From: Geobacteraceae bacterium | GTDB taxonomy: Bacteria > Desulfobacterota > Desulfuromonadia > Geobacterales > Geobacteraceae | Direction: 5' to 3' | Length of the DNA stretch: 64,000 nucleotides | Assembly: GCA_009773645.1 (NCBI GenBank) | Contig: WSYB01000003.1 | Span: 62,001 to 126,000, forward strand | In this document: positions 35,054 to 42,838 of the stretch, piece by piece | Position numbering within the stretch: the first letter of the stretch is position 1 | Layout of the letters: every line of letters begins with the position of its first letter | Notes under the pieces: generated by a model | The model's input: only the letters and a program-made list of their open reading frames with translations | Databases searched by the model: none | Told to the model about the DNA's origin: nothing | Translations under genes and position numbers: made by a program

Positions 35054-35935
35054 ATGACCAACATCATCCTCCTCATCGTCTGCTTTGCGGTCGGGATTAT
35101 CCTTCACAGGACCGGCCGCTTTCCCGCCGCAACCCCAGCCGCCCTGAACGGCTTCATCATCCACGTCTCCCTCCCCGCCCTGGCCCTCCTCCATATCCAC
35201 AGGCTGCGGCCCGATCCTTCCCTTATCTACACGGGGGCCATGGCTTGGCTCCTCTTCGGCGCGGGCTTCGTCTTCTTCCGCTATGCGGGGCGGATGGCCG
35301 GACTTCCCGACAACACGGTCGGGGCGCTCATGCTGGTGGGGGGGCTGGGGAACACCTCCTTTGTGGGACTTCCCATGATCGAGGCGTATTATGGAAAGGA
35401 GTATCTGGGGGTGGGGCTCATCGCCGACCAGCTCGGCTCGTTTCTGGTCCTCTCTACGCTGGGCATCTTCGTGGCGACCATCTATTCCTCGGGCGACATT
35501 TCCCCACGCCGGATGGTCAGGAAGATACTCCTCTTCCCCCCCTTTGAGGCGATCATTCTCGCCTTCCTCCTCATGCCGGTCCCGTTTCCTTCCTGGCTCA
35601 TCATTGTTCTGCAGAAGCTTGGAGATACGCTGACCCCGCTGGCGCTGGCCTCGGTCGGTTTTCAGCTGCGTCTCAGTCACATCAAAGGGGAGCTGAAGCC
35701 CTTGGGGATCGGACTCCTCTACAAGCTGGCGATCGGCCCTGCCCTGATAACGCTCCTCTTTGTGGGGATCATGGGGGCCGGCGGGAAGGTGATGCAGGTG
35801 ACCATTTTCGAGGCCGCCATGGCCCCCATGATCACCGCCGGGATCATCGCAGTCGATCCTTACCCTGCCGGTCTGGTGGTATTTGCTGCAAGGGGTGTAG
35901 ATGAACGGCCGAGATTCCGGGAAGGTGGTATTTGA
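35054..35935 (+). pseudogene. AEC (auxin efflux carrier) family transporter with internal deletion and frameshift near the 3' end
   Basis: The first 270 residues read as a normal AEC permease, with about eight hydrophobic helices, GGLGNTSFVGLPM, and EAAMAPMITAGIIAVD. After the Asp near 35861 the frame gives PYPAGLVVF and ends at 35935. If the frame is shifted by one base at that point, the next codons read LTLPVWWYLLQGV and stop at 35898-35900, which is the usual C-terminal end of this family. The residues normally found between GIIA and the last helix (about 20) are missing. A short deletion therefore removed part of the last helices and shifted the frame. The protein may be inactive. Confidence 0.8.
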
Positions 35936-36026
35936 CGCCATCCGGCAGCTTATGACGCCGCCGGAGCTAGAGGCGGAGCCGCACGTCTGCGGAGCGGGGT
36001 ATGCTTCCGGAACTACTGTAGCATAA
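35901..36026 (+). pseudogene. C-terminal remnant of an ORF6N-type phage protein
   Basis: Beginning right after the original stop of the AEC gene, a 41-codon frame contains KVVFDAIRQLMTPPELEAEP. This strongly resembles the C-terminal end of ORF6N-domain (KilA-N-like) proteins, which often end in FxAIRQLMTPP. No N-terminal domain is present upstream or in other frames nearby. It is best read as a gene fragment left by an insertion or deletion event. The recognition is from memory of the motif, without a search. Confidence 0.5.
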
Positions 36027-36202
36027 CTCCACACTGTGACATTATCCCCCGTCCCGTTTTTCACCTTCCGGGCGAAAAGCGTCCAATTTCTCCACGTTTC
36101 GTGCCCGCCGTAACAATTGCCAGCACCAGTGAGAGACCGTAAAGGGTTGCTATCTCTGCGTTCGCAGCGGCGCGCGATCACCAGCTACGTCCCAAGTTTT
36201 TT

Positions 36203-36218
36203 TGGCATTTGAGTTGCA
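36203..36218 (+). promoter_or_regulatory. sigma-54 (-24/-12) promoter of the 41-codon ORF
   Basis: TGGCATTTGAGTTGCA matches the TGGCAcg-N4-TTGCA consensus, with GG and GC exactly 12 bases apart. Transcription would begin near 36229, about 70 bases before the ATG of the small ORF and about 300 bases before a strong terminator. Confidence 0.75.
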
Positions 36219-36299
36219 AATTAAATTGATAGAACCACGGCAAGACAGTCATTGTGCCCGCTGAATGGGTCCTCTATCAACGAGATAGGAGAAGCAGCG

Positions 36300-36425
36300 A
36301 TGGGATTACAAGGGATACAGCAACTACTCACCAGGATCAAGACCCGCAGGGCAGACAATCGTCGAAAAACAGACCACAGCAACCGTGAATTCCTGGAATA
36401 TTGGTACGCATACTACGGTTGCTGA
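36300..36425 (+). CDS. 41-residue basic/aromatic peptide in a sigma-54 transcription unit; function unknown
   Basis: ATG 36300 has AGGAG 7 bases upstream, and the frame ends at TGA 36425. The peptide starts MGLQGIQQLLTRIK and has a strongly basic centre (KTRRADNRRK). It ends EFLEYWYAYYGC, a dense aromatic run with a final Cys. It has no signal peptide. The unit has its own sigma-54 promoter (36203-36218) and intrinsic terminator (36499-36526), which supports a deliberate small transcript. Its product could be this peptide, a regulatory RNA, or both. The aromatic/Cys tail is of the kind that can be modified after translation, but no maturation enzyme is adjacent. No known family was recognised. 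Confidence 0.6.
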   Translation: MGLQGIQQLLTRIKTRRADNRRKTDHSNREFLEYWYAYYGC

Positions 36426-36498
36426 TCACATAGAAGATGTAACGGCTTCTCATGTTTTCCTAGGTTGTATTTGTTACTCCTTTCCTTTCTGATGAACG

Positions 36499-36526
36499 GG
36501 CAGGCCGACGGGTTTGCCTTTTTTTT
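36499..36526 (+). terminator. intrinsic terminator of the sigma-54 small unit
   Basis: GGCAGGCC (36499-36506) pairs over 8 positions with GGTTTGCC (36511-36518), two of them G-U, around the loop GACG. TTTTTTTT follows. It stops + strand transcription between the small ORF and the convergent serine hydrolase gene. Confidence 0.8.
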
Positions 36527-36560
36527 CAGACCTCTCAGATCCCCTTCATGGTGTAGCTTT

Positions 36561-37865
36561 TCACTGCCTTCCCCCATGCCTGCCGTTGTGACGATGGAAC
36601 AGCGACGGCGTTTCAGGTGTAACCGCAGCCATCCTGGTGCCGGGTGGCGGAGCCTGCAGAGGCTTGGTCGGCCTCTGCTGCAGATTCGTGGTTATCTGTG
36701 CAGTTCCCCCGGGGGGTCCCTCATTGCCGCCGGGGCGCCTGAACCGAGCCACGGCAATGGTGGAGACATTGCTGCGGAGTTGATTCAACTCCCCGGTGTC
36801 CCGGTAGTTACGGCGGTTTGTCAGCAGGACCACGAACAGGTCCCGCCGGGGATCTATCCAGATCGATGAGCCGCTGTAACCGGAGTGGCCGAAGGAAGCG
36901 TCGGAGAAGAGACTCCCCTTCGGCGCAGAAAACGGAGACTCCATGTCCCATCCCAGGCCGCGCACCACAGCGCCGTTGCTGTAAAAGCGCGGGGAGATCA
37001 TCTGGTTCACCGCCCGCTCCGAAAGGATGCGCCTGCCGTCAATCACACCGCCACCCAGGATGAAACGGGCGAATCGGGACAGGTCGTATGCAGAGGTGAA
37101 AAGGCCGGCATGTCCCGAAACGCCGCCAAGTCGGCGGGCATTGGCGTCCTGGACTACTCCGCGGCTGAAACCCAGCGTGGGGGCGATGGGGTCGTTGAGG
37201 TTCCGCGGCGGCGCAAACATCGTCTGTTCTGCGCCAAGCGGTCGGTATATCTCTTCACGGCAGTATCTGTCCAGCGACCTGCCTGAAGCGCGATGGACCA
37301 CTTCTCCCAGGAGGATGAAGTTGATGTCGGCGTAGTTGAAGAGCCTCCCCGGCCGTTCCCGGTGTTTTTCGGCCGCAGCCTTGCGGATCGCCGTTTTGAT
37401 CCCCTGCCGCCGGTGCAAATCGAAGTCGCCCAGTCCCGACGTATGGGTGAGCAAGTTAAGGATGGTGATCTCTTCACGTCCAAAGCGTTTAAACTGAGGG
37501 AACCAGCGGGTCAGAGGGTCCGACAGGGAGATGCGCCCCTCGTCCACCAGCTTCATCACGGCCGGCGTAGTTGCAATGACTTTTGTCAGGGAAGCGACGT
37601 CGAAGATTGTCGTTTCGCCCAGCAACGGCGCACCGGCACGTGCATCCACCCGCCCCCTGGCCATGGTGTAAAGAATGCCGGTGTGGTCGCCGATGACCAC
37701 GACTCCGCCGGCGATGAGATTGCTTGAGACGGCCCGCTCCATGAGAAGCTCGATGATGTCGGTGTGGCCGGATTCATGGAGCATCTCCGATGCGGGTATG
37801 ACCGAGGCGAATATAAGCAGGGATGCTATGGCAAAGATACGAATAACGTGCACGGTAGCCCCCAT
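36561..37865 (-). CDS. exported serine hydrolase of the beta-lactamase/transpeptidase-like family
   Basis: This 434-residue class C beta-lactamase-fold protein has an N-terminal signal peptide (VIRIFAIASLLIFASVIPAS). The catalytic SxxK is VASLTKVIATTP (about residue 93), with the YxN motif in FNYADINFILLGE (about 178). The third motif is replaced by HSGYSG (about residue 330), as is common in esterase/DD-peptidase members of the family. The C-terminal 80 residues are Pro-rich and probably disordered. The protein is periplasmic. Esterase, D-aminopeptidase or peptidoglycan-related roles are all possible, and true beta-lactam resistance is unlikely. AGGGGG lies upstream of the ATG. Confidence 0.88.
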   Translation of the reverse strand: MGATVHVIRIFAIASLLIFASVIPASEMLHESGHTDIIELLMERAVSSNLIAGGVVVIGDHTGILYTMARGRVDARAGAPLLGETTIFDVASLTKVIATTPAVMKLVDEGRISLSDPLTRWFPQFKRFGREEITILNLLTHTSGLGDFDLHRRQGIKTAIRKAAAEKHRERPGRLFNYADINFILLGEVVHRASGRSLDRYCREEIYRPLGAEQTMFAPPRNLNDPIAPTLGFSRGVVQDANARRLGGVSGHAGLFTSAYDLSRFARFILGGGVIDGRRILSERAVNQMISPRFYSNGAVVRGLGWDMESPFSAPKGSLFSDASFGHSGYSGSSIWIDPRRDLFVVLLTNRRNYRDTGELNQLRSNVSTIAVARFRRPGGNEGPPGGTAQITTNLQQRPTKPLQAPPPGTRMAAVTPETPSLFHRHNGRHGGRQ

Positions 37866-37997
37866 GTGTTCCCCCTATATTTCTCTTCGGCTGCAGGGGC
37901 GCAATGTTAAGCGGAATTATCGGCGGTATATCCCATCCCCGAGCTCCCTCCCCCCAACGTTTTAATCCATTGAATTTTGAGAACTTTTCAGTATAAA

Positions 37998-38243
37998 ATG
38001 CATAGCCTGACACGCTGGTTTTCCGAAAGATATTTCTCGCGCAAAGCCGCAAAGGGCGAAAGGGTCCGTTTGGATGCGGGTTTCCGGGCTGATATCATTG
38101 TCGACGATTCGGTTATTGTCGAGCTCAAATCTCTGGAGAAGGTTGCGCCCGTTCACAAGAAGCAGCTTACGACATACCTGATGCTTGAGCGCGAGGAGAG
38201 GATTTCCTTAAAGATGTTTGGAGGAGAAAAAAGCAATGCATGA
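37998..38243 (+). pseudogene. GxxExxY family protein, remnant
   Basis: The stretch RLDAGFRADIIVDDSVIVELKSLEKVAPVHKKQLTTYL, given here only by its ends (about 38068-38180), is the C-terminal core of GxxExxY proteins. The N-terminal GxxExxY region is absent. The sequence before the core (FSRKAAKGERV) is encoded by a CGCAAAGCCGCAAAGG-type repeat, and after TTYL the frame no longer matches. It is therefore a decayed gene. The frame runs 8 bases into the next small gene, whose own ATG is at 38236. Confidence 0.65.
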
Positions 38244-38424
38244 TCTGTTACCGGATGGAGAAGACTTACGACGCGCCGTCAAATGGGTGTCCGGCAACCT
38301 TCAGGAGAATCCCGGCCAGCCGGTCCAGCCGCTCGTCCAGGAAGCAATCTTCAAGTTCGATCTTTCACCCAGGGATGGCGAGTTCCTGATCGGGTTCTTC
38401 AGTCAAAGAAAAGAGGAACCATAA
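38236..38424 (+). CDS. small conserved hypothetical protein
   Basis: The 62-residue product begins MHDLLPDGEDLRRAVKWVSG and ends in LSPRDGEFLIGFFSQRKEEP. GGAGGAG is 9 bases before ATG 38236, so it looks like a genuinely expressed gene rather than an extension of the remnant upstream. It appears soluble and helical, with no membrane segment. Proteins of this size and pattern are remembered from other Geobacter genomes without a known function. It is placed here without a search. Confidence 0.6.
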   Translation: MHDLLPDGEDLRRAVKWVSGNLQENPGQPVQPLVQEAIFKFDLSPRDGEFLIGFFSQRKEEP

Positions 38425-38577
38425 CCCGTAATATCTGGTGCAAGTTGGCATCTTGGAAGACTAACCCCGCATGACGCTGATCTCCTTGACACTACCGCCT
38501 CTATGGGTGTATGAATGTGGGTAATTTTTATGGAATGTCCGGGAGGGGTTATGGGATGCCGGAGTGCAGGTTCAGAG

Positions 38578-38618
38578 AGCCGCTTGGTCAGTGTGGAAGC
38601 TGATGGGGCGGCTTTTTT
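38578..38618 (+). terminator. possible intrinsic terminator
   Basis: AGCCGC (38578-38583) and GCGGCT (38608-38613) enclose a 24-base loop and are followed by a run of six T. The loop is long, so the call is tentative. It lies 150 bases after the small hypothetical gene. Confidence 0.45.
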
Positions 38619-38625
38619 GTTGACA

Positions 38626-38760
38626 GGGAATTAAATATGATGTCCCCAGAATTCCTTGATGTCCCCAGAATTCCTGCCCGGGAATTAAATATGATGTCCC
38701 CAGAATTCCTGCCCGGGAATTAAATATGATGTCCCCAGAATTCCTGCCCAGAATTCCTGC
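38626..38760. repeat. array of GGGAATTAAATATGATGTCC-type repeats
   Basis: The unit GGGAATTAAATATGATGTCC followed by CCAGAATTCCTGCCC occurs three times, with additional partial copies of TGATGTCCCCAGAATTCC. The unit contains a GGAATT/AATTCC dyad. The units are nearly identical and adjoin directly, so it is not a CRISPR. It resembles REP-type repeats linked to single-domain transposases, none of which is present here. The remainder of 38425-38804 shows only the possible terminator. Confidence 0.8.
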
Positions 38761-38804
38761 GAGAAACTTACTGCATGCCGATTCACAGATAACGGAGCAA
38801 AACC

Positions 38805-39098
38805 ATGAACCGAGATGACATCCTATCATTTTTGCAGACGCACAAGGAAGAGATCACGCGGCGGTACGGCGTGGCGCGCATCGGCCTATTTGGAAGCTTC
38901 GCACGGGGAGAGGCATCCGAAGAATCCGATATTGACATTGCCCTAGAGCTTATGCCCGGCAGGAAGACCTTGAGTAATTTCTTTGCTTTCAGGCGGTATC
39001 TTGAAAAGGAGTTAGGCAGGAAGGTGGACCTGGGGATTGAAAGTGCGCACAAACCGCTGGCACGAGAGATGATCGGTAAGGAGATCATCCATGTCTGA
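38805..39098 (+). CDS. mntA: MNT-type minimal nucleotidyltransferase, antitoxin of a HEPN/MNT pair
   Basis: The 97-residue protein is a minimal nucleotidyltransferase. GLFGSFARGEASEESDIDI gives the Gly-Ser (30-31) and the two metal-binding Asp (42 and 44). Proteins of this group neutralise a HEPN RNase encoded next to them, in studied cases by adding AMP units to the toxin. Here the partner is reduced to a 22-codon stub that overlaps the 3' end (39091-39159), so the antitoxin appears to have outlived its toxin. Starts further upstream are not supported. The gene directly follows the repeat array at 38626-38760. Confidence 0.88.
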   Translation: MNRDDILSFLQTHKEEITRRYGVARIGLFGSFARGEASEESDIDIALELMPGRKTLSNFFAFRRYLEKELGRKVDLGIESAHKPLAREMIGKEIIHV

Positions 39099-39159
39099 AC
39101 GGGCGGTGCTCCTCTATCTGCAAGACATCCTCGATTCGGGAACCGCCATCCAGTCGTGA
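39091..39159 (+). pseudogene. HEPN toxin, N-terminal stub
   Basis: ATG 39091 overlaps the MNT stop by 8 bases, the usual arrangement of MNT/HEPN pairs. The 22 codons MSERAVLLYLQDILDSGTAI (then QS) match the first helix of HEPN toxins and then meet TGA at 39157. No continuation of the HEPN domain or its RX4-6H motif was found in the next 100 bases in any frame. The toxin was most likely lost by deletion. Confidence 0.7.
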
Positions 39160-39217
39160 AAGAATGTCCCTTTCTCCCTCCAAAAATATCTTGCAATTAA
39201 AGCGGGTTGCCGGTAAT

Positions 39218-39257
39218 TTGATCTTGAATATAGATCAAATGATCTTGATTCAAGATC
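39218..39257. promoter_or_regulatory. nested palindromic operator upstream of the winged-helix gene
   Basis: Two dyads lie side by side: TTGATCT-N7-AGATCAA (39218-39238) and GATCTTGA-T-TCAAGATC (39241-39257). Both are built from the same TTGATCTTGA half-sites, so this is a likely binding site for the winged-helix protein encoded 16 bases downstream, allowing self-regulation of the pair. Confidence 0.7.
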
Positions 39258-39273
39258 AAACATGGAGTCGTCT

Positions 39274-39603
39274 ATGCTCGAACCTCTCCTGGCATCCACC
39301 AACTGTGAGCGGGTGTTGATTTTCCTCGCGGCTCGCGATGAGGGTTATCTGCGGGAAATGGCGGATTTTTTCCAGACTTCTCCGGCTCCTCTCCTTAAAC
39401 AGCTTGAGAAGCTCGAAGCCGGGGGGGTCCTTTTCAGCCGTCCTGTCGGCCGCACCCGTCTCTATGGATTCAATCCAAGGTATCCGTTCCTGAAGGAACT
39501 GAAGGCCCTGCTCGACAAGGCCCTGTCCTTTTACCCCGAGGATCTCCGTACATCGCTCCTGGCGAGCAGGCGGAGGCCAAGGCGGAAAGGAAAGCCGCTG
39601 TGA
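39274..39603 (+). CDS. winged-helix DNA-binding protein paired with a nucleotidyltransferase
   Basis: The 109-residue protein has one winged-helix domain of the ArsR/MarR-like type (LLASTNCERVLIFLAARDEGY, LREMADFFQTSPAPLLKQLEKLE, GGVLFSRPVGRTRLYGFNP) and a basic tail. The start is taken as ATG 39274, with GGAG 6 bases before it; an in-frame ATG at 39262 lacks a site. Its stop overlaps the start of the next gene (GTGA), so the pair is translationally coupled. The palindromic operator directly upstream suggests autorepression, as in two-gene toxin-antitoxin units such as AbiEi/AbiEii. The antitoxin role is inferred. Confidence 0.8.
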   Translation: MLEPLLASTNCERVLIFLAARDEGYLREMADFFQTSPAPLLKQLEKLEAGGVLFSRPVGRTRLYGFNPRYPFLKELKALLDKALSFYPEDLRTSLLASRRRPRRKGKPL

Positions 39604-40139
39604 AATCCCTGCGGGAAATGTCCATCGGTGAAATCGCCGCCTATGTTGCCGAGCATCTGCGCCAGAGTGGTATCAACGTAGTGTTGACCGGCGGCAGTTG
39701 CGTCTCAATTTACACCGATAACCGCTACCGGTCGTATGATCTGGACTTCATTGAAGAGGGAAGGTCGGGGCGGAAGAAGATTGCAGGGGTCCTGATGAAG
39801 CTTGGTTTTCAAGAGAGGGACCGGTACTTCATCCATCCGGACACCCCCTTATTCGTAGAGTTCCCGGCCGGGCCGCTGGCGATCGGCGATGAGCCGGTAC
39901 GTGAAGTTGCCCACCTTGAGTTTGCAACCGGCACATTGCGGCTGCTTTCCGCTACCGATTGTGTCAAAGACAGGCTTGCCCATTACTATCACTGGAAAGA
40001 CCGGCAGTGTCTTGATCAGGCGGTGATGGTGGCGGCGGTTTCCGAGGTTGATCTGGAGGAAATCGAGAGGTGGTCACGGCATGAAGGCATGGAAGAGGAA
40101 TTCCAGCGGATCAGGGCAATGTTGCAGGCACAGTCTTGA
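39600..40139 (+). CDS. nucleotidyltransferase-fold protein, possible toxin of the pair
   Basis: The 179-residue protein has a nucleotidyltransferase core: VVLTGGSCVSIYTDNRYRSYDLDFIEEG contains the GG(S) and the DxD metal site (about residues 30-50). SATDCVKDRLAHYYHWKDRQCLDQA (about 120-145) resembles the helical region of AbiEii-like and DUF6036-type enzymes. GTG 39600 overlaps the stop of the winged-helix gene, and ATG 39618 is an alternative start. The gene context, with a DNA-binding partner and a shared operator, fits a toxin-antitoxin or phage-abortive pair. No toxicity can be shown from sequence. Confidence 0.75.
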   Translation: MKSLREMSIGEIAAYVAEHLRQSGINVVLTGGSCVSIYTDNRYRSYDLDFIEEGRSGRKKIAGVLMKLGFQERDRYFIHPDTPLFVEFPAGPLAIGDEPVREVAHLEFATGTLRLLSATDCVKDRLAHYYHWKDRQCLDQAVMVAAVSEVDLEEIERWSRHEGMEEEFQRIRAMLQAQS

Positions 40140-40254
40140 TCAGGTGGTACCCCCTTAGTTCCTCGTCATTTGGCAAAAAATAAGCCGTGTAAAGTCCCGC
40201 TTCACACGACTCTCAGCTTCTTCTGCAATGTATGCACTGAGTTGATGACCCCTC

Positions 40255-40917
40255 CTACGCAGCCCGGGCCAGTTTGGCACCTTCGCCGTGCCCGCCGAGA
40301 AACTCCTTCACGAACCGGACTTCGATGCCGTACGGCGAGTGCGCCTTGAGGATATCCATGCACCCCTCGTACGTCTCGCTCCGTCCCCAATCCTGCTGGA
40401 GTTCGAAGAGAAACTGCAGTGAAGTGATCGGTACCGCCCCCGCCTGAACGAACCGCGCTACCGCCCTTTCGTGGGCCTCAACGCTGATGTCGCCGCAGGC
40501 GTCGGTGGGAACGTAGACCTCATAGCCGGCGTTGAGCAGGTCGAGCGTCGGGAAGAGTACGCATGCTTCAGTCCAGAGCCCGGCCACTACGACTTTTTTC
40601 TTCCCGGTAGTTTCGATCGCACTCCTGAAATTCCGGTCGAGCCAAGCGTTGATGGAAGTCCGGTCGATGGGAGTCCTCTCCGGGAAGATGCCTCTCACCT
40701 CGGGTATCATTGCGCCGCTGAAGCTCTCTGCAGCGACAGTAGAGAGGATTGTCGGCACCTTGAAGAGTCGGGCCGCCTTGGCTATTATCTGGACATTTTG
40801 GACAATCGTGGTCTTATCGTGAGAGTTGACGCCCGAGAACATCGCCGGCTGGTAGTCGATCAGAGCCAGTGCACAATCGCCGGGAGCCAACATGCCGTGA
40901 AGATTCTTGCTTTTCAT
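40255..40917 (-). CDS. isochorismatase-family cysteine hydrolase (YcaC-like)
   Basis: This 220-residue cytoplasmic hydrolase of the isochorismatase superfamily shows the Asp nucleophile helper in ALALIDYQPAMF (about residue 20), a Lys in KKKVVVAG, and the catalytic Cys in GLWTEACVLFPTLDLLNAGY (about residue 118). The pattern and length are those of YcaC-type members, whose substrate is unknown; nicotinamidase or isochorismatase activity is not indicated. AAGGAGG lies before the ATG, and a good sigma-70 promoter is 60 bases upstream. It is transcribed alone. Confidence 0.88.
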   Translation of the reverse strand: MKSKNLHGMLAPGDCALALIDYQPAMFSGVNSHDKTTIVQNVQIIAKAARLFKVPTILSTVAAESFSGAMIPEVRGIFPERTPIDRTSINAWLDRNFRSAIETTGKKKVVVAGLWTEACVLFPTLDLLNAGYEVYVPTDACGDISVEAHERAVARFVQAGAVPITSLQFLFELQQDWGRSETYEGCMDILKAHSPYGIEVRFVKEFLGGHGEGAKLARAA

Positions 40918-40973
40918 GACTACAACCTCCTTTCCACGGGGAATGCCTTCCCATTCCCCCTTTACCTGACTAA

Positions 40974-41002
40974 ATTATACTGCGATTACCCACACATTTC
41001 AA
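40974..41002 (-). promoter_or_regulatory. sigma-70 promoter of the isochorismatase-family gene
   Basis: On the - strand, TTGAAA (41002-40997) and a perfect TATAAT (40979-40974) are 17 bases apart. Transcription would start near 40967, giving a leader of about 50 bases. Confidence 0.75.
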
Positions 41003-41065
41003 TTCAATTACATAATCGTACCAAAACCAAAATGGAGCTGAAAAACTTCGCAGCCACCCACTTTT

Positions 41066-41218
41066 TCAGGAGTCGGACGACCGCCAGGTGATCAGATTTC
41101 TGGCATTGGTGAATTCTATTACCGGCCTGTCGTCGAGGAGGTAGTTCCTGCCGTCGGCCTGCACGTGATTTATCCGCGGATCGGAAAAGAGGGATGGACT
41201 CCTCTCCTTGGCTTGCAC
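41066..41218 (-). CDS. possible 50-residue ORF with coding-like codon use
   Basis: From GTG 41218 to TGA 41066, the - strand reads a frame that contains RINHVQADGRNYLLDDR and ends ITWRSSDS. Third codon positions are mostly G or C, as in the surrounding genes, which suggests real or formerly real coding sequence. No convincing start site is seen: AAGGAGAGGAG at about 41195-41205 is not followed by ATG, GTG or TTG in frame. It may be the 3' end of a lost gene. It lies just downstream of the prfC terminator. The rest of the 336-base gap 40918-41254 holds only that terminator and the promoter at 40974. Confidence 0.3.
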   Translation of the reverse strand: MQAKERSPSLFSDPRINHVQADGRNYLLDDRPVIEFTNARNLITWRSSDS

Positions 41219-41230
41219 TGCACATACAAA

Positions 41231-41252
41231 AAAGCCCGCTTCCGCGGGCTTT
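41231..41252 (-). terminator. intrinsic terminator of prfC
   Basis: A perfect 9-bp stem, AAAGCCCGC/GCGGGCTTT, with a 4-base loop begins 2 bases after the prfC stop codon on the - strand and is followed by TTTTTTG. Confidence 0.9.
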
Positions 41253-41254
41253 CA

Positions 41255-42838
41255 TCATCTGTGTTCCCGCGTGGCGTGGAACTCGATCTCCTTCCAGTTT
41301 TCCATGGTGTTCTCCAGCCGCCAAGCGCTGCCGGCCAGATACGCCAGGTTCCCCTCCCCGTCCCGGTAGAGGTGCATCGCCTCTTTCTTCTCGAACTCTT
41401 CCAGCTTCTTTCTATCCCCGGTCACCCAGCGGGCAGTGACGTAGGAAACCGGTTCGTAGGCGGCCTTGACCCCGTATTCGTGCTCCAGCCGGTGCATGAC
41501 CACGTCGAATTGGAGAAGTCCCACGGCGCCCACGATCCAGTCAGCCCCCATGAGCGGGCGGAACACCTGAGTGGTCCCTTCTTCGGCGAGCTGTACCAAC
41601 CCTTTTTCCAGGGCCTTGGACTTGAGCGGGTTCAGGATCCTTACCTTGCGGAAGTGCTCCGGTGCAAAGTTGGGGATGCCGGTGTATTTCAGCTCCTCCC
41701 CCTGGGTGAAGGTATCGCCGATCTTGATGGTGCCGTGGTTGTGGATGCCTATGATATCACCGGGATAGGCCTCGTCCACGTTGGTCCGGTCCTGGGCCAT
41801 GAAGATGGTGGCGTTGGCAATCTGTACCTCGCGGCCGAGCCGTGCATGGCGTACTTTCATTCCCCTGGTGAACTTGCCTGAGCAGATGCGGAAGAAAGCG
41901 ATCCGGTCCCGGTGGGCCGGGTCCATGTTGGCCTGGATTTTGAATGCAAACCCGGTGAACTGCTCCTCGTAGGGGGAGACCATCCTGCTCATTGCCTCGC
42001 GCGGTTGCGGGGGCGGGGCGTGCTCCACAAAGGTGTCTAGGAGCTGCTGCACGCCGAAGGTGTTGACGGCGCTCCCGAAGAAGACCGGCGTCTGGAGTCC
42101 TGCAAGGTATGCTTCCTGCTCAAAGGGGTGAGCCGCTCCTTCCAGGAGTTCCACGTCGTTTCGGAGCTCCTCCACCTGGGAACCCAGGAGTTCATCGAGG
42201 CGCGGATCGGAAAGCCCCTTGACGGTAACTATCTGGCCGGTGCCGCGGTCGGCTTCCGGGTCGAAAAAGGTGAGCTCCCTGCTGTAAAGATGGTAGGTCC
42301 CCCTGAACCGTTTCCCCATGCCGATCGGCCAGGTCATGGGGGCGCACTGGATCTTGAGGTTGCTCTCGATGTCGTCCAGAAGGTCGAGCGGTTCGCGCCC
42401 TTCCCGGTCGAGCTTGTTGATGAAGGTCATGATCGGGGTATGGCGGAGGCGGCAAACCTCCAGGAGCTTTCTGGTCTGGCTCTCCACCCCCTTGACCGAG
42501 TCGATCACCATCAGTACAGAGTCAACGGCGGTGAGGACCCGGTACGTGTCCTCGGAAAAATCGTTGTGCCCGGGGGTGTCGAGGAGGTTGATTTCATAGC
42601 CGTTGTAGTTGAACTTCATGACCGACGAGGTCACCGATATGCCGCGCTGTTTTTCCAGCTCCATCCAGTCCGAAGTGGCATGACGCGACGACTTGCGGGC
42701 TCTTACCTCTCCGGCCTGCTGTATTGCGCCGCCGAACAGGAGGAGCTTCTCGGTAATGGTTGTTTTCCCGGCGTCCGGATGGCTGATGATGGCGAAGGTG
42801 CGTCTTTTATCGATTTCATTTTGGTTGTGCTTCTTCAA
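41255..42838 (-). CDS. prfC: peptide chain release factor 3
   Basis: RF3 is the GTPase that removes RF1 or RF2 from the ribosome after termination. The protein is 527 residues from TTG 42838, close to E. coli RF3 (529). This start is preferred over TTG 42871 because GGAG/AGGA lies just before it and the chain then begins [21 protein letters not shown]-domain motifs are [10 protein letters not shown] (G1), RGISVTSS (G2), [10 protein letters not shown] (G3) and NKLDRE (G4). The C-terminal domains are complete ([16 protein letters not shown]). An intrinsic terminator follows the gene, and a terminator-like hairpin stands in its leader. Confidence 0.96.

Follow-up and report, generated by a model that had tools for sequence, protein, structure and literature searches.

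The window analyzed here is a 64-kb stretch of DNA from a Geobacteraceae genome, and the locus under study lies between the 3′ end of an AEC-type transporter gene and a convergent gene for a serine hydrolase. A sequence-only reading had proposed that this interval holds a hidden sigma-54 transcription unit encoding a 41-residue peptide. The features considered below, in window coordinates, are as follows:

35054-35935, + strand: AEC-type transporter gene with an altered 3′ end (Pfam and comparison with relatives)
35922-35967, + strand: C-terminal fragment of an ORF6N-like gene (KVVFDAIRQLMTPPE), directly behind AEC
36203-36218, + strand: candidate -24/-12 (sigma-54) promoter, TGGCATTTGAGTTGCA (motif, genome-wide counts and the consensus of PMC2725144)
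36226-36280, + strand: perfect inverted repeat with 8-bp arms (TTGATAGA/TCTATCAA) on either side of the putative 5′ leader
36287-36291, + strand: AGGAG, Shine-Dalgarno-like, 8 nt before the ATG at 36300 (sequence reading)
36300-36425, + strand: 41-codon open frame (MGLQ...YYGC) with stop codon TGA at 36423-36425; no homologue or coding signal found
36377-36424, + strand: perfect inverted repeat with 10-bp arms (CAGCAACCGT/ACGGTTGCTG) and a 28-nt loop that covers the 3′ end of the 41-codon frame together with its stop codon
36498-36526, + strand: intrinsic terminator with a 9-pair stem, a 4-nt loop and eight T (sequence reading and terminator scan)
36561-37865, − strand: convergent beta-lactamase-family serine hydrolase gene (PF00144)

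In relatives, PK, OYE-like and AEC transporter genes stand in a row, and prfC follows AEC directly at 7 of the 11 loci from relatives (12 AEC loci were compared, one of them the window's own). Because prfC ends at 41255 in the window, about 5.3 kb is inserted. This genome-specific insert, between AEC and prfC at 35901-41254, contains the proposed unit and also carries the hydrolase, a nuclease fragment, a nucleotidyltransferase and an isochorismatase-like gene. At its left border, AEC homology to relatives extends only as far as residue 268 of 293; the frame is shifted by a net deletion of approximately 59 nt at 35858, and the former AEC tail, LTLPVWWYLLQGV followed by a stop codon, is still readable at 35859-35900 in another frame. 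The altered 3′ end of AEC (35850-35935) may represent a pseudogene or an assembly error. The fragment behind it, which we take to be ORF6N-like, shares 90% identity across 40 nt with a full-length copy that the genome carries at another position.

The terminator at 36498-36526 is strong and exceeds chance expectation. Its stem, GGGCAGGCC-GACG-GGTTTGCCT at 36498-36519, contains nine pairs, three of them G-U, or eight without the outer wobble pair; the hairpin and eight T of the sequence-only reading are present, with the T-run at 36519-36526. Under a strict definition (at least 7 pairs and 7 of 8 T), it is the sole terminator on the + strand of the entire 64-kb window, compared with 0.0-0.1 per strand in shuffled sequence. 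On the − strand the hairpin is not followed by a T-run, and it therefore does not serve the convergent beta-lactamase gene but acts on the + strand only. It also lies at a fitting distance from the candidate promoter.

The same terminator could nevertheless belong to a different history. In most of the downstream sequences of relatives, judged by eye, AEC is followed at once by a hairpin-plus-T terminator; in the window this AEC-proximal terminator is gone, the + strand has no strict terminator besides that at 36498, the end of AEC is damaged, and the ORF6N-like fragment lies in between. These observations point to a reading in which the stretch is debris: The operon's own terminator would have been lost on arrival of the insert, the hairpin at 36498 would end read-through from PK-OYE-AEC, the sigma-54 motif would be a chance or orphaned match, and there would be no dedicated unit at all. 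Set against this is the close packing of T-tract, -24/-12 motif, Shine-Dalgarno sequence, frame and terminator, which is more orderly than debris would lead one to expect. We regard this explanation as nearly as likely as the sigma-54-driven short RNA that we tentatively prefer.

The candidate promoter, TGGCATTTGAGTTGCA, is preceded by a T-tract and, as the sequence-only reading had noted, carries GG and GC in the correct register, with the GG at -24, the GC at -12 and the invariant spacing of sigma-54 promoters; it would place the transcription start near 36229. It keeps the core dinucleotides and spacing of the G. sulfurreducens RpoN consensus, TTGGCACGGTTTTTGCT (PMC2725144), but has TT where that consensus has CG after TGGCA, and, unlike the G. 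sulfurreducens promoters, has no protein gene of ordinary size downstream. A consensus drawn from 186 sigma-54 promoters reads mrNrYTGGCACG-N4-TTGCW (PMC2725144). In the window, the strict motif (TGGCA-N6-TTGCW, with the same pattern reversed as control) occurs once against 0.34 expected, and since at least one match arises in 30 of 100 shuffles, it is not significant inside the window alone.

The genome as a whole presents a different picture. The strict motif is found 36 times, compared with 14 for the reversed control, and when all 36 sites were examined, 20 proved to lie outside any ORF of at least 100 aa, as against 1 of the 14 controls ("intergenic" here meaning outside such mechanical ORFs, not outside curated genes). 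The motif is thus both enriched and intergenic in its own genome, which indicates that an intergenic strict match is usually real there. The other 19 intergenic sites each have an ORF of at least 100 aa within approximately 400 nt downstream, although one of these (107 aa, at L053) may itself be spurious. Judged from their translations, ORFs behind some of the sites resemble glnB, flhA, PilZ-type and exported proteins, and glnB-like and flhA-like genes are among the types known to use sigma-54. Together with the counts, the position of several sites before such genes argues for a short sigma-54-driven RNA.

Other properties of the site argue against one. The one frame downstream of it, 134 aa long, overlaps the terminator and lacks credibility, which makes the site the sole one among the 20 intergenic sites without a credible protein gene and hence, if about 1 in 20 is a chance match, the likeliest candidate. 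Moreover, the control (1/14) leads one to expect about one chance intergenic motif per genome, in line with an orphaned motif in debris. Between 36030 and 36200 we found no convincing enhancer-binding-protein dyad, with no arms longer than 5 and nothing better than in shuffles. None of the 11 relatives' AEC loci contains a strict sigma-54 site, and comparison of the unit with the genome's 35 other sigma-54 loci returned only short chance matches. Two of those loci, L041 and L043 (contig C19, positions 4009 and 16733), share the identical strict 16-mer TGGCATCGGCGTTGCA on opposite strands, approximately 12.7 kb apart.

Within the candidate transcript, AGGAG, the ATG at 36300 and the 41-codon frame are all present as originally described. 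The AGGAG, 8 nt from the start codon, is at the proper, indeed ideal, spacing for a ribosome binding site. Of dinucleotide shuffles of 36219-36497, 19% produce an ATG frame at least 41 codons long, and 3.75% one that also has a loosely defined Shine-Dalgarno sequence. Taken by themselves, these features would favor a real small-protein gene, encoding a basic 41-residue peptide with an aromatic, Cys-ended tail under sigma-54 control. Against this stands the codon usage, which is not that of the genome's genes: The frame scores -0.21 to -0.30, depending on the background, which falls below the 5th percentile (-0.07) of 40-codon pieces from window genes and resembles the scores of other frames; its CAI-like value is the sixth lowest of 115. 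The same stretch is also open in a 67-aa frame on the + strand and a 63-aa frame on the − strand, so that the claim that the transcript contains nothing else is sound with regard to known families and does not extend to open frames.

Homology searches likewise spoke against a protein. No credible homologue of the frame appeared among 97 relatives (12 of the 96 other genomes gave weak matches at E up to 1) or among 277 genomes of the class (1 of 276 others at E up to 0.01), nor did a 66-residue open frame find one in 141 genomes of the order (2 of 140 others at E up to 0.05); a sample of 395 genomes drawn from the phylum was equally negative. Each of these counts includes the window's own genome, which alone gave a convincing E value in the order, class and phylum sets. 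Absence of the frame from relatives had been named beforehand as evidence against the proposal, and this is what we observed; all other genomes compared lie outside the genus, and the verdict on conservation is therefore one between genera. Phages, plasmids and viral contigs contained no homologue, and Pfam, NCBIfam, PHROGs and PADLOC no family matching the frame. In 11 loci from genomes that carry the neighboring beta-lactamase gene, neither peptide nor unit was present.

Several candidate identities were considered and set aside. The best outside peptide match, in genome G057 (E 0.009), is interrupted by two stop codons and is attributed to chance; the weak matches from the searches of the 97 relatives and of the order, with alignments inspected for the former, lie in unrelated frames, several with internal stops, that share mostly basic stretches, and were treated in the same way. 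When 7 other frames were searched for the remains of a known domain, none gave a Pfam match, and a phage or plasmid origin of the stretch found no match either.

On the sequence evidence, then, the 41-codon frame is not supported as a protein-coding gene: Only the Shine-Dalgarno sequence and its spacing favor it, and we consider such a gene unlikely. A frame without coding signal in turn favors RNA over peptide as the product.

At the level of RNA, the arms of the 10-bp inverted repeat (36377-36386 and 36415-36424) are equaled in only 2 of 200 shuffles, a feature noticed after the fact. Together with the sole strict + strand terminator in 64 kb, the rarity of this hairpin argues for a short RNA. 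Apart from it, the predicted 298-nt RNA is no better folded than shuffled sequence (z -0.56; 56 of 200 shuffles do equally well or better). No Rfam family matches the window at gathering level; the best match below threshold, L20_leader (20.0 bits against a cutoff of 58.7, E 0.15), resembles chance, and no tRNA or other known RNA identity was found. A role as a CsrA sponge was discarded because the count of GGA, by eye, is not above expectation. Among the 141 genomes of the order, only the window's own matches the DNA at 36203-36500. The hits of a separate DNA search (L016-L018) covered the terminator hairpin only, or lay in or after unrelated genes, and were rejected as homologues. The lack of a DNA counterpart, the ordinary fold energy and the lack of an Rfam match argue against a short RNA, and the absence of conservation is equally what debris would predict.

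The 10-bp repeat brackets the Trp/Tyr codons of the frame (EYWYAYY) and is followed by the terminator, an arrangement that recalls an attenuator, with the frame as leader peptide, that has lost its regulated gene or had it replaced. We found no clear antiterminator pairing by eye, there is no credible + strand gene between the terminator and 37900, the next gene being convergent, and such a system would more usually have a promoter of housekeeping type; we regard this origin as highly improbable.

Our preferred reading, held tentatively, is that the promoter motif and terminator within the genome-specific insert delimit a lineage-restricted, possibly sigma-54-driven short transcription unit of approximately 298 nt (36229-36526). 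A short unit on the + strand is plausible because the motif class is enriched in intergenic DNA and the terminator is strong; it is this part of the original proposal that we retain, while its coding function finds no support. Sigma-54 RNA polymerase, activated by a distant enhancer-binding protein, would start transcription near 36229 and stop at the hairpin, releasing a small RNA. Any function would more likely be exerted as RNA, through base-pairing or the 3′ hairpins, than via the 41-codon frame, in which no mark of selection is seen; we identified neither a target nor an activator site. A more ambitious version, in which a newly arisen, genus-specific, sigma-54-controlled RNA from the AEC-prfC insert responds to nitrogen or motility and perhaps has a dual function with its Trp/Tyr/Cys-tailed peptide, strikes us as quite improbable.

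Such a short RNA would resemble the sigma-54-dependent trans-acting sRNAs CrcZ/CrcY/CrcX and Qrr as a short stand-alone transcript with a -24/-12 promoter and an intrinsic terminator, both presumed here from the DNA. Unlike it, CrcZ (PMC8657755) and Qrr (PMC10162802) have known activators and targets. With the dual-function sRNAs VcdRP and SgrS/SgrT, it would share a small transcript in which a frame of a few dozen codons is accompanied by a Shine-Dalgarno sequence (VcdP has 29 residues; PMC8672173), but their frames are translated, whereas that of the window has neither coding signal nor homologue. The G. sulfurreducens RpoN study dealt with promoters in front of protein-coding genes, and its main text does not contain the term "small rna" (PMC2725144). 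In that organism rpoN could not be deleted (PMC2725144), which suggests that an rpoN mutant may be unobtainable in the group.

If transcribed, the unit would enlarge the RpoN regulon of the Geobacter family by one small RNA specific to its lineage. It would be at most an unremarkable example, and nothing categorically new follows from any of the readings. No paper on it was found in the literature searches made, and any claim that it is unpublished extends no further than these. As it stands, the main value of the locus is one of caution: A tidy succession of promoter, frame and terminator in rearranged DNA needs conservation or expression data.

The remainder of the insert shows further features of its own. 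The short PD-(D/E)XK nuclease frame (PF13366) at 37977-38243 covers only the middle to the end of the profile and is possibly a fragment. At 38572-38829, a − strand translation contains a recurring ILGTSYLIPGQEFWGH-like unit, which points to short tandem repeats in the DNA. The gene pair at 38805-40136, consisting of a PDC-S09-like nucleotidyltransferase and a PDC-M05A-like or weakly AbiEii-like partner, represents candidate phage-defence or toxin-antitoxin genes.
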